Shown here: piece by piece, positions 6,804-10,146 of the stretch | How the letters are laid out: every line of letters starts with the position of its first letter | How positions within the stretch are numbered: the stretch's first letter is position 1 | DNA from: an uncultured Flavobacteriales bacterium | GTDB lineage: Bacteria > Bacteroidota > Bacteroidia > Flavobacteriales_D > CAJJDF01 | Assembly (NCBI GenBank): GCA_905182785.1 | Contig: CAJJDF010000049.1 | Location: forward strand, 1-46,229 | Direction: 5' to 3' | Length of the DNA stretch: 46,229 bases | Made by a program: the position numbers and the translations under genes | Notes under the pieces: model-generated | Told to the model about the DNA's origin: nothing | What the model saw: only the letters and a program-made list of their open reading frames with translations | Database searches by the model: none

Positions 6804-7667
6804 TTATCCTAAATAACTCTTTAATAATTTACTTCTTGACTTTTGTTTCATTTTTCTTAATCCCTTCTCCTTTAATTGTCTCACTCTTTCTCTTGTCAAA
6901 TCAAATTTATCTCCTATTTCTTCTAAAGTTAAGGGATAGCTCTGTCCAATTCCAAAATAAAGTTTAATTATATCAGCTTCTCTTAAAGATAAAGTTTCTA
7001 AGATTCTATTTATTTCTTCATTTAAAGACCCTTTTAGCAATTCATCTTCAGGTGTCTCTGTATCTTTACTTGCAAAGACTTCATACATGTCATTCTCACT
7101 GTCTACACCAAGTGGTGCATCCATAGAAACTGATCTTCCAGAAATAGATTGTGCTTTTTTTACTTCTTTTAAACTAAATTCTAATGTTTCAGCAACTTCA
7201 GAGGGTGAAGGAGCTCTTTCAAATTTTTGTTCTAAAGAAGAAGATGTTTTATTAATTTTATTAATTGTACCAATCTTATTTAACGGTAACCTTACAATTC
7301 TTGCATGTTCTGCTATTGCTTGGAGTATTGCTTGTCTTATCCACCACACAGCATAAGAAATAAATTTAAACCCTCTTTTCTCATCAAATCTTTGTGCTGC
7401 TTTAATTAAGCCAAGGTTTCCTTCGTTGATAAGGTCAGATAATGATAATCCTTGATTCTGGTACTGTTTGGAAACAGAAATAACAAATCTCAAATTGGCT
7501 TTAGTTAATTTTTGCAAAGCATTTTCGTCTCCACTTCTAATTTGTGCAGCTAATGTAACTTCTTCTTCAGCTGTAATCAAATCATATTTGCTGATTTCTA
7601 GAAGATATTTATCTAGAGATTGAGTTTCTCTGTTTGTTATTTGTTTGGTTATTTTTAGTTGTCTCAT
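6804..7667 (-). CDS. rpoD: primary RNA polymerase sigma factor (RpoD/SigA, Bacteroidota short form)
   Basis: The housekeeping sigma factor directs RNA polymerase to most promoters. Its 287 residues carry region 1.2 ([20 protein letters not shown]), region 2 ([20 protein letters not shown] then [15 protein letters not shown]), region 3, and the region 4 helix-turn-helix [20 protein letters not shown] near residues 245-265. Region 1.1 and the long non-conserved insert of proteobacterial RpoD are absent, as is normal for this phylum, whose sigma factor recognises TTTG/TAnnTTTG. The gene follows pnp but is separated by the pnp terminator. It has its own consensus promoter about 190 bp upstream, implying a long untranslated leader. 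Confidence 0.95.
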
Positions 7668-7858
7668 GTTTTTCGTATTTAAAAGGAGCTATATAATATA
7701 TCTACGTATGTAAAGTCAATTTGTTTTCGTGCTCTGATGATTTAACGATCGAGATTAGCTATTGTTACGAAATCTGACCATTATTAACATAATTTAACAC
7801 TTCTATTTATTTAACGGTAGGTTTTAATCATTATTCATTTTGTTTACTTATTACAGTA

Positions 7859-7889
7859 CAAAGTTAAACAAAATAATTACGTTACCAAA
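7859..7889 (-). promoter_or_regulatory. consensus promoter of rpoD (TTTG-N19-TAACTTTG)
   Basis: On the minus strand, TTTG at 7889-7886 is followed after exactly 19 bases by TAACTTTG at 7866-7859. Both boxes match the Bacteroidota consensus fully. Transcription should begin near 7852, leaving a leader of about 185 nt before the ATG at 7667. This is sequence matching, not mapped. Confidence 0.65.
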
Positions 7890-7929
7890 GTATTTGTTTA
7901 ACAAATACACTAAATAATTAAACAAAATA
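7864..7929. promoter_or_regulatory. palindrome and flanking direct repeats upstream of rpoD
   Basis: A perfect 9-1-9 palindrome (GTATTTGTT at 7890-7898, AACAAATAC at 7900-7908) directly abuts the outer edge of the predicted rpoD -33 box. The 12-mer TTAAACAAAATA occurs on both sides, at 7864-7875 and 7918-7929. This arrangement looks like a binding site for a dimeric regulator. In this AT-rich DNA some symmetry could be chance. No gene lies between 7668 and 7995. Confidence 0.4.
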
Positions 7930-7942
7930 TTTTTTATGCAAA

Positions 7943-7976
7943 AAAAACCTCCAGATTTCTCTAGAGGTTTTTTTAT
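7943..7976 (-). terminator. intrinsic terminator of pnp
   Basis: Arms AACCTCCAGA (7946-7955) and TCTAGAGGTT (7960-7969) pair over 10 bp with one G-U and a 4-base loop, then a T run on the minus strand. It lies about 25 bp after the pnp stop. Confidence 0.85.
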
Positions 7977-7995: not shown

Positions 7996-10146
7996 TTATA
8001 CTTCTTTCTTTTCAGCTCTTTCTGGTCTGTCCATTAAGATCTTTCTAGATAATTTATGTTTTCTTTTCTTTGGATCAAATCCAGTTACTTTAAAAGTAAC
8101 CATGTCTCCTACAGAAACTACATCTTCTACTTTGTCCGTTTTGTCCCAAGCTAATTCGGAGATATGGATTAATCCATCTTGTCCAGGAACTACTTCTACG
8201 AAACATCCAAATTCTTTGATAGATTTAACAGCTCCAGTATAAGTCATTCCAACTTCAATTTGAGGAGGGTTAACAATCAAATCAATTTTCTCAAGTGCTA
8301 AAGCCATTCCATCTCCGTCATTAGTTAATACAGAAACTGTAGCAGTTTCTCCATCTGGATTTTCATCAATACTAATTTCTGAATTTGTTTCAGCTTGTAA
8401 TTCTTGAATTACTTTTCCTCCTGATCCAATGATTGCTCCAATTTTATCAGCTGGAATAATCAAACTCTTAATTCTAGGAGTATGTTGTTTGTATTCATTA
8501 TTTGGAGTAGAGATAGTTTTCATCATTTCTCCTAAGATATGCGCTCTACCTGCTTTTGCTTGTTCAAGAGCTTCGGCTAATACAGTGTAAGGAAGTCCTT
8601 TTACTTTGATGTCCATCTGGCAAGCAGTGATTCCATTTTTAGTTCCAGTTACCTTGAAATCCATATCTCCAATGTGATCTTCATCTCCTAAGATATCAGA
8701 TAATACAGAGTATGTTCCTTCTTCATTCATGATAAGTCCCATTGCAATTCCAGATACTGGATTTGTAATTTTAATACCACCGTCCATCAATGCAAGAGAA
8801 CCTGCACAAACTGATGCCATAGAAGAAGAACCGTTAGATTCTAAAATTTCTGACACCAATCTTATTGTATAAGGATTTACATCTGGATCAGTTGGGATAA
8901 CTTGTTTCAAAGCTCTTTGAGCTAAGTTTCCATGTCCTACTTCTCTTCTTGATGTTCCTCTTAATGGTCTTGCTTCTCCAGTAGAGAAAGGAGGGAAGTT
9001 GTAGTGTAAAGTAAAGTTTTGAGTCTTTTCTTCAACAGCTCCGTCAAATCTTTGCTCATCTTTCTTTCCACCTAACGTAAGTGTAGTTAAAGATTGAGTT
9101 TCTCCTCTTGTAAATACAGCAGAACCGTGACAAGATGGTAAGTAAGCTACTTCACTCCAGATAGGTCTGATTTCATCAGTCTTTCTTCCGTCTAGTCTTT
9201 TCTTTTCATTCAACACAACATTTCTTATTCCTGCTTTTTGAGCATTTTTGAAATAACCGCTAATGAAAGGACCTTCAGCTTCTAATTCCTCTTCACTTAA
9301 AGAAGCAATGTATTCTTCTTTAATAGCTCCAAATAATTGAGCTCTCAATTCTTTATCAGCATGACCTGCTCTTGCAACATCTTCACATTTGCTAACTGCA
9401 AATGCTTTGATTTTTGCTTCAACAGCTTCGTCATGAGTTTCGTGAGAATATTCTCTTTTTGTTTCTTTACCTAGTTCTTTCATGAACTCAGCCATAATAG
9501 CACATTGTTCTTTAATAACAACATGTGCAGTTTTAATAGCATCAACCATTTCAGCTTCAGAAATTTCTTTCATTTCACCTTCTACCATCATAATGCTGTC
9601 TTTTGTTCCAGCAATTACCATGTCCATATCAGCTTTAGCATTTTGTTCGTAAGTTGGGTTAATTACGAATTCTCCGTCTACTCTAGATATTCTTACTTCA
9701 GAAACCGGAGTTTCGAAAGGAATATCAGAACAAGCTAAGGCTGCAGATGCAGCAAAACAAGCTAAAGAGTCTGCCATGTTTTCATCAGCAGATAATAATT
9801 GTATCATCACTTGCGTGTCTGCGTGAAAGTCTTCAGGAAAAAGAGGCCTAAGCGCTCTATCAACTAATCTCATAGTTAATATTTCATACTCAGAAGGCCT
9901 TGCTTCTCTCTTGAAAAATCCTCCAGGAAATTTCCCTGCAGCAGCATATTTTTCTCTATAATCAATAGTAAGTGGCATAAAGTCTACTCCTGGTTTTGCA
10001 TTTTTTGCAGCAACTGCAGTAGCTAATAATACCGTGTCTCCAATTCTAATCTCAACAGCTCCATCAGATTGTTTCGCTAATTTTCCTGTTTGAATTGTAA
10101 TTTCTCTACCGTCTGGTAGATTCATCTTTTTTGTAATAATGTTCAT
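7996..10146 (-). CDS. pnp: polyribonucleotide nucleotidyltransferase (PNPase)
   Basis: PNPase degrades RNA from the 3' end using phosphate and takes part in mRNA turnover. The 716-residue protein has the usual order: first RNase PH-like domain (about 10-140), alpha-helical linker, second RNase PH-like domain (about 310-460) with the catalytic region DILGDEDHIGDMDFKVTGT, a KH domain with IIGSGGKVIQEL near residue 560 and a C-terminal S1 domain (about 620-690) beginning GMTYTGAVKSIKEFGCFVEV. It is downstream of rpsO, as in many bacteria; the 180-bp gap contains a hairpin, so part of its transcription may be read-through. Its own terminator follows. Confidence 0.97.
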   Translation of the reverse strand: MNIITKKMNLPDGREITIQTGKLAKQSDGAVEIRIGDTVLLATAVAAKNAKPGVDFMPLTIDYREKYAAAGKFPGGFFKREARPSEYEILTMRLVDRALRPLFPEDFHADTQVMIQLLSADENMADSLACFAASAALACSDIPFETPVSEVRISRVDGEFVINPTYEQNAKADMDMVIAGTKDSIMMVEGEMKEISEAEMVDAIKTAHVVIKEQCAIMAEFMKELGKETKREYSHETHDEAVEAKIKAFAVSKCEDVARAGHADKELRAQLFGAIKEEYIASLSEEELEAEGPFISGYFKNAQKAGIRNVVLNEKKRLDGRKTDEIRPIWSEVAYLPSCHGSAVFTRGETQSLTTLTLGGKKDEQRFDGAVEEKTQNFTLHYNFPPFSTGEARPLRGTSRREVGHGNLAQRALKQVIPTDPDVNPYTIRLVSEILESNGSSSMASVCAGSLALMDGGIKITNPVSGIAMGLIMNEEGTYSVLSDILGDEDHIGDMDFKVTGTKNGITACQMDIKVKGLPYTVLAEALEQAKAGRAHILGEMMKTISTPNNEYKQHTPRIKSLIIPADKIGAIIGSGGKVIQELQAETNSEISIDENPDGETATVSVLTNDGDGMALALEKIDLIVNPPQIEVGMTYTGAVKSIKEFGCFVEVVPGQDGLIHISELAWDKTDKVEDVVSVGDMVTFKVTGFDPKKRKHKLSRKILMDRPERAEKKEV

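Follow-up and report, generated by a model that had tools for sequence, protein, structure and literature searches.

A pnp-linked RpoD gene in a Flavobacteriales genus carries operator-like modules of a putative pigment regulon and a predicted ECF-type promoter

INTRODUCTION

How is the gene for an RpoD-like sigma factor itself controlled? Both the control of RpoD genes in Bacteroidota and that of rhodopsin in flavobacteria are open in print. The window analysed here, a 46,229-nt contig of an uncultured Flavobacteriales bacterium, raises the question in the region between pnp and an rpoD-like gene. There a sequence-only reading had described a promoter abutting a palindrome, a repeated 12-mer and a leader of about 185 nt, and had taken them as signs of specific control of the primary sigma factor. 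We compared the window's genome (G000) with those of three congener species (G001-G003), a sister genus and more distant relatives. The locus reads as follows.

6804..7667, minus: ORF for an RpoD-like sigma-70 factor of 287 aa, downstream of pnp, ATG at 7667
7941..7974, minus: terminator-like hairpin after pnp, an inverted repeat with 15-nt arms, 93% complementary, and a T run
7996..10146, minus: upstream ORF of 716 aa, presumably pnp (polynucleotide phosphorylase), a name we took from its sequence and under which it served as the pnp query

RESULTS

Promoter P1, its palindrome and its leader

7859..7866, minus: P1 -7 box TAACTTTG, spacer 19, in this form in the window species only
7886..7889, minus: P1 -33 box TTTG; TTGG kept in 4/4 congeners
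7890..7908, minus: 9-1-9 palindrome, perfect in the window species

The described elements are all there: both boxes of P1, the palindrome directly adjoining the -33 box, and the 12-mer at 7864-7875 and again at 7918-7929. The exact promoter pattern TTTG-N19-TAnnTTTG and the 9-1-9 palindrome each occur once in the window. In an AT-rich stretch of this kind neither is surprising alone: Markov-1 simulation yields averages of 0.63 and 0.53 per window, and 35% of the 60 simulated sequences contained such a palindrome. The weight therefore rests on comparison among species. That comparison does not bear out the palindrome, of whose nine arm pairs 4, 4 and 6 are left in the three congeners, where only its right arm (TTAAACA) is retained. 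The -7 box reads TAACTTTA, TAATTTTA and TAACTTTA in these species, with a spacer of 20 instead of 19. The palindrome core TTTGTTWAACAAA has six exact places in the window's genome; among the other five, one precedes dxs (C44), two lie inside ORFs (C6 and C69), one overlaps a start codon (C36) and one is intergenic (C54). We rejected the core as a site by itself.

Since the -7 box is placed at -12 to -5 relative to the start in Flavobacterium psychrophilum (PMC9723704, in part), we estimate the P1 start near 7854 and its leader at about 187 nt; leaders in that species have a mean of 65 nt and a median of 24 nt. The sequence-only reading overlooked a second, nearer promoter of predicted ECF type. 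A structured RNA leader was rejected, as folding is no better than in shuffles (z +1.16) and no Rfam family matches at gathering score. What emerges is mixed for the original proposal: a likely start nearer the ATG and an unconserved palindrome, yet a conserved region.

Two operator-like modules at P1

7893..7926, minus: operator module U, TTTGTTTA-N18-TAAACAAA, 0 mismatches, just upstream of the -33 box
7839..7872, minus: operator module D, TTTGTTTA-N18-TAAACAAA, 0 mismatches, over the -7 box and start site

The pnp-rpoD intergenic region aligns well between the window species and its three congeners, and the conserved unit in it is an inverted-repeat pair, TTTGTTTA-N18-TAAACAAA, that occurs twice at rpoD in all four species. 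Mismatches in U and D are 0/0 in G000, G001 and G003 and 2/1 in G002; the gap between the arms is exactly 18 nt in 8/8 rpoD modules, and U and D lie 53-55 nt apart in every species. Three bases separate the end of module U from the -33 box. The left arm of module D closes with the TA of the -7 box, and this module extends over the expected start. The palindrome and the repeated 12-mers are pieces of these modules. Specific control is therefore upheld in so far as the promoter region holds conserved control elements, but the 9-1-9 palindrome is not the conserved unit. On the genomes compared, P1 with its operators is found only in this genus; the sister genus lacks modules at rpoD, which counts against a regulon reading. 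As a yardstick for AT-richness, the window has 10 single arms away from the rpoD region, and 4 of them likewise fall outside ORFs.

Genes at module sites

By chance a genome should contain 0.02-0.03 perfect modules. Two are found in G000 and two in G003, all at rpoD, and none in G002; the four in G001 comprise two at rpoD, one at dxs and one 12 nt from a rhodopsin gene (PF01036, 140 bits). When two mismatches are allowed, the counts show no excess over a reversed-pattern control (18 against 35 in G000; 25 against 19, 15 against 14 and 25 against 22 in the others). This counts against the regulon reading, and loose matches are thus meaningless by themselves. At no more than one mismatch there are 27 sites in the four genomes; in the 26 examined (G001:C114 was left out), none lies wholly inside an ORF and two overlap a start codon. 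They are distributed as follows.

rpoD: 7 sites
merR: 3 sites
crtI: 1 site (CrtID model 737 bits, cut-off 640)
rhodopsin: 2 sites
dxs: 1 site
SDR-TetR operon: 3 sites
small conserved protein, which we take to be DUF2452 (no NCBIfam match): 2 sites
presumed carotenoid-hydroxylase-like gene (no NCBIfam match): 1 site
TonB-linked protein with a weak SusC/RagA match: 1 site, with two-mismatch sites in the other three species
presumably fasciclin-like genes: 3 sites
no clear link: 2 sites

In 6/28 compiled sites, some of them with two mismatches, an exact TAnnTTTG starts from the TA of the arm, and five more have TAnnTTTA; as the remaining 17 have neither, overlap with a -7 box can be claimed only for the sites at rpoD, SDR and TonB. 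The window's own genome has the SDR-TetR and small-protein sites; a search of approximately 267 kb of it found no merR, crtI or rhodopsin gene, a further point against the regulon reading. Taking these lines together, the best reading of the sites is that P1 is part of a carotenoid/rhodopsin regulon, so that a core transcription factor seems to be tied into a pigment/light programme. Among open-licence PMC papers, represented by extracts, we found none that describes a pigment-regulon operator at rpoD or an ECF-type rpoD promoter.

A CarH-like candidate regulator

The merR gene of G001-G003, encoded with crtI in sister species, has a module site 2 nt before its ORF start in 3/3 congeners where it was seen. 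Its product of 297 aa has an N-terminal MerR helix-turn-helix (PF13411, MerR_1, 49.5 bits; PF00376, 33.6 bits; both above cut-off) and a four-helix B12-binding_2 domain (PF02607, 26.4 bits, cut-off 23), and CarH chains 3whp and 5c8d match it at 2-3e-11. Residues 131-225 align with CarH and keep E-x-H-x-I-G (NEIHDIG against GERHEIG), with no Rossmann-type B12-binding Pfam match at E 0.001; we take E-x-H-x-I-G to be the axial histidine motif, the residue roles being assumed. The curated CarH model NF052513 is not passed (60.8 bits against a cut-off of 400), which speaks against the regulon reading, and for this reason we call the protein CarH-like, not CarH. By its domains and the sites at its own gene it is the likeliest regulator of the modules.

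The LitR/CarH light regulators share with it the MerR head joined to B12-binding_2, the adjoining crt genes and the sites at carotenoid genes (PMC9758184, in extract). Sites of the Pseudomonas LitR proteins are built on TGTACA according to the same extract, whereas the unit here is TTTGTTTA-N18-TAAACAAA; unlike in the LitR/CarH systems, genes for an RpoD and a rhodopsin are among those at the putative sites in this genus.

A predicted ECF-type promoter closer to the ORF

7743..7747, minus: P2 -10 element CGTTA, 16 nt after the -35, score 13.7
7764..7768, minus: P2 -35 element GTAAC (CGTAAC), conserved in 4 congeners and both sister-genus genomes
7781..7818, minus: conserved ACCGTTAAAT / GTGTTAAAT / TGTTAA repeats upstream of P2, kept in congeners and partly in the sister genus

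Closer to the ATG lies CGTAAC-N16-CGTTA (7769-7743), with AAC in the -35, CGT in the -10 and a gap within the 16-17 nt range. Promoters of ECF sigma factors have AAC in the -35 and CGT in the -10. GTAAC-N16-CGTT is present in the window and the three congeners, and the sister genus, though without modules, retains CGTAAC/AGTAAC-N16-CGTT at rpoD. Further afield, G[TA]AAC-N16/17-CGT[AT] occurs within 160 nt of rpoD in 59/80 named Bacteroidota loci, these being the best 80 of 594 relatives with close relatives over-represented, and in 17/34 loci of the window's own group and order. Spacers in the 59 (again from the best 80 of 594) are 16 nt in 30 and 17 nt in 29, against 0.3 in shuffles and 0-2 for other spacers of 8 to 26 nt; the consensus over these loci is TGTAACATTT ... 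TACGTATAA. Across families only the two short boxes are kept, and the spacer varies in sequence at a length of 16 or 17. The pattern is absent in 12/12 Cytophagales-type loci, which counts against it.

With a matrix made from the named loci, the window site, which lies outside the training set, outscores all 384 background gene upstreams; the same matrix brings 10/35 own/order loci to the 1% level, low scores there being due to a -10 box that reads CGTT. A stricter form occurs once in each of 5/6 named Flavobacteriaceae-type genomes (reversed control 0), at rpoD in four of them and within an opposite-strand ORF in the remaining one. In the window's genome as a whole, TAAC-N16-CGTWA shows no enrichment (16 occurrences, 72 in the control), another point against; of its matches, the three that stand no more than 100 nt ahead of an ORF are at both rpoD genes and gldN. 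On this distribution P2, a promoter of predicted stress-sigma type upstream of rpoD in many Bacteroidota, is phylogenetically older than the P1 of the single-long-leader view. The repeats at 7781-7818 could be an activator site of the predicted ECF-type promoter. They include spaced GTTAAAT repeats, which in sister-genus locus L011 have a 21-nt spacing.

Two published systems resemble P2. In Streptomyces the ECF sigma factor ShbA initiates transcription of hrdB and of its own gene (PMC9205884, in extract), so that a principal-type sigma gene is read from an ECF-type promoter, as predicted here; the differences are the phylum, an ECF sigma predicted here from the promoter form, and a candidate whose autoregulation pattern is confined to this genus. 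The SM6 promoters of F. psychrophilum share with P2 the CGT box at -10, taken there as ECF-dependent, and the selection of them printed in the excerpt of PMC9723704 comprises genes of type IX secretion and for an ECF sigma/anti-sigma pair, with no primary sigma gene among them.

Candidate sigma factors for P2

An ECF sigma factor of L140 type (G000:C15:67987-68592) is encoded in 58/60 genomes of the order and in 22/22 named genomes, four of the latter being Cytophagales-type genomes whose rpoD upstream lacks the P2 pattern; because it is near-universal, its presence does not discriminate it as the partner of P2. Upstream of its own gene the P2 pattern is found in 3/4 congener loci, plus one variant, and in 0/25 loci from named genomes (three of which repeat a neighbour's upstream). 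In many relatives this gene has a recurrent leader, GCCTATAG..., followed by TCTACT ... AGTAGA arms just before the ATG, which might enclose the start in a hairpin (L140/L145, L146-L174).

Elsewhere in the window's genome, TAAC-N16-CGTAA stands 30 nt before gldN (G000:C17:53208-53232; GldN model 192.8 bits), whose F. psychrophilum counterpart has an ECF-type start (PMC9723704, in part). As a link to the SM6 set gldN mostly failed: the match in G000 and a fair score in G003 (8.7) are not kept in most relatives, and 0/13 named genomes have a good match. SigP of Porphyromonas gingivalis was set aside, its motif in the portion of PMC4800418 at hand being unlike P2.

Two RpoD copies

The position directly downstream of pnp is common to the rpoD genes of relatives (75/115 rows pnp-adjacent), and many genomes of the order have two RpoD-like genes. 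The window protein matches the NCBIfam RpoD models strongly without passing the curated ones (RpoD_Cterm, 260.6 bits against a cut-off of 354), and since the second copy of the same genome (C34) also falls below RpoD_Cterm (250 bits), this cut-off is uninformative here. Between congeners the window-type RpoD is 88.5-90.6% identical and the C34 copy 98.6% (one pair); to the sister genus the values are 74.6-79.4% and 92.3-93.0%, and one pair from another two-copy family gives 83.4% against 97.2%. The slow evolution expected of a main sigma factor is thus not seen in the window RpoD, and the label 'primary sigma factor', given to it by the sequence-only reading, is doubtful in this genus; the C34 copy may be the better candidate for it.

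The five window-type proteins all carry H at 121 and I at 118 (Q121H, L118I), positions that are Q and L practically throughout 129 other RpoD sequences and that, by their position, we take to lie between the -10-binding part of the sigma factor and its linker. Given this location, a changed promoter preference of the window-type sigma is possible. In a tree of RpoD copies the window group is a single clade (SH-aLRT 100), on a branch so long that its placement is unsure. Genomes of the order show two RpoD types, pnp-linked (KQVTNRETAS) and second (KSITNRESQS); among 20 copies of both types, GTAAC-N16/17-CGT lies 50-75 nt upstream in 4/6 of the former and 0/14 of the latter, one of which has a match at -160.

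DISCUSSION

We propose a model in which this rpoD-like gene has two promoters, P1, repressed via its modules by the CarH-like MerR protein, and P2, an ECF-type promoter for basal or stress expression, and we consider it moderately probable. P1 (7859-7889) would be a housekeeping-type promoter at which the regulator binds modules U and D; one site immediately ahead of the -33 box and another covering the -7 box together with the start have the geometry of repression. The regulator would most likely be the CarH/LitR-like protein encoded with crtI in sister species, so that P1 would share its release with carotenoid, isoprenoid and rhodopsin genes, light or cobalamin state being a plausible signal. 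Nearer the gene, P2 (7743-7768) would supply basal or stress expression with a leader of about 70 nt. The sites, their geometry and conservation and the genes beside them are observed, as is the spacer-specific recurrence of the P2 type; from these we infer binding, repression, the identities of regulator and ECF sigma, and a response to light.

The identity of the regulator is where a competing account has most to offer. The same operators and regulon might answer to the TetR-type protein behind the SDR gene, or to another regulator, with a signal other than light. The TetR gene, whose product has a confirmed TetR_C_23 domain, could be the regulator: its operon has a module site, right at its start, in 3/4 genomes (G000, G002 and G003), and the gene occurs in the window's genome, the searched stretch of which yielded no merR. 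We nevertheless regard this as rather unlikely, since merR is likewise marked by a module site at its own gene (3/3) and placed with crtI, the carotenoid and rhodopsin targets suit a CarH-like regulator, and the 18-nt gap between 8-nt arms is long for a single TetR dimer. It is improbable that P1 is a plain constitutive housekeeping promoter, its TTTGTTTA boxes AT-rich upstream elements or drift, and P2 alone regulated. The AT-rich arms, the window arms that fall outside ORFs by the yardstick given above, and two-mismatch counts no higher overall than in the control are in line with such a reading, but it has to contend with the exact 18-nt spacing in 8/8 modules and with a shared set of pigment genes at modules in different species.

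For P2, a conserved transcription-factor site or an RNA element in the leader might be imagined in place of a promoter. The conserved GTTAA repeats just upstream would fit, P2 being a promoter predicted from its letters. We give this little credence: the two boxes are kept across families around a varying spacer of 16 or 17 nt, the form equals that of ECF promoters, with a CGT -10 read as ECF in F. psychrophilum (PMC9723704, in part), and the shuffle-like folding and missing Rfam match speak against an RNA element. The original picture, in which the 9-1-9 palindrome is an operator for the primary sigma factor and the 185-nt leader is regulatory, is very improbable. Its elements exist as described, but the palindrome is unconserved in the genus, the leader is unstructured and contains a second, predicted promoter, and the window gene is probably not the main sigma factor of this genus.

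The two-promoter model may be taken further, as a tentative possibility that we hold with less confidence than the model itself. The pnp-linked RpoD would have been handed to the light/pigment programme, with a CarH-like repressor on P1 in the dark; on release, the altered sigma factor (Q121H, L118I) would retune transcription, while the second RpoD served housekeeping. Beneath this would lie an older circuit from an ECF sigma to RpoD in Flavobacteriales and many Bacteroidales, parallel to ShbA-HrdB. Rhodopsin-bearing Dokdonia likewise have two RpoD homologues, and their authors suggest that the second RpoD may control the rhodopsin genes (PMC3587595, in extract). Flavobacteria with rhodopsin and a second RpoD are thus common to both cases; for the Dokdonia second RpoD no operator or promoter is described in that extract, whereas here it is the pnp-linked copy that carries operator-like modules. 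Work on the control of flavobacterial rhodopsin is called for in the same extract of PMC3587595. Our analysis provides for it a defined operator, a candidate regulator and a target list, and indicates that in many species rpoD may have a promoter of ECF type.
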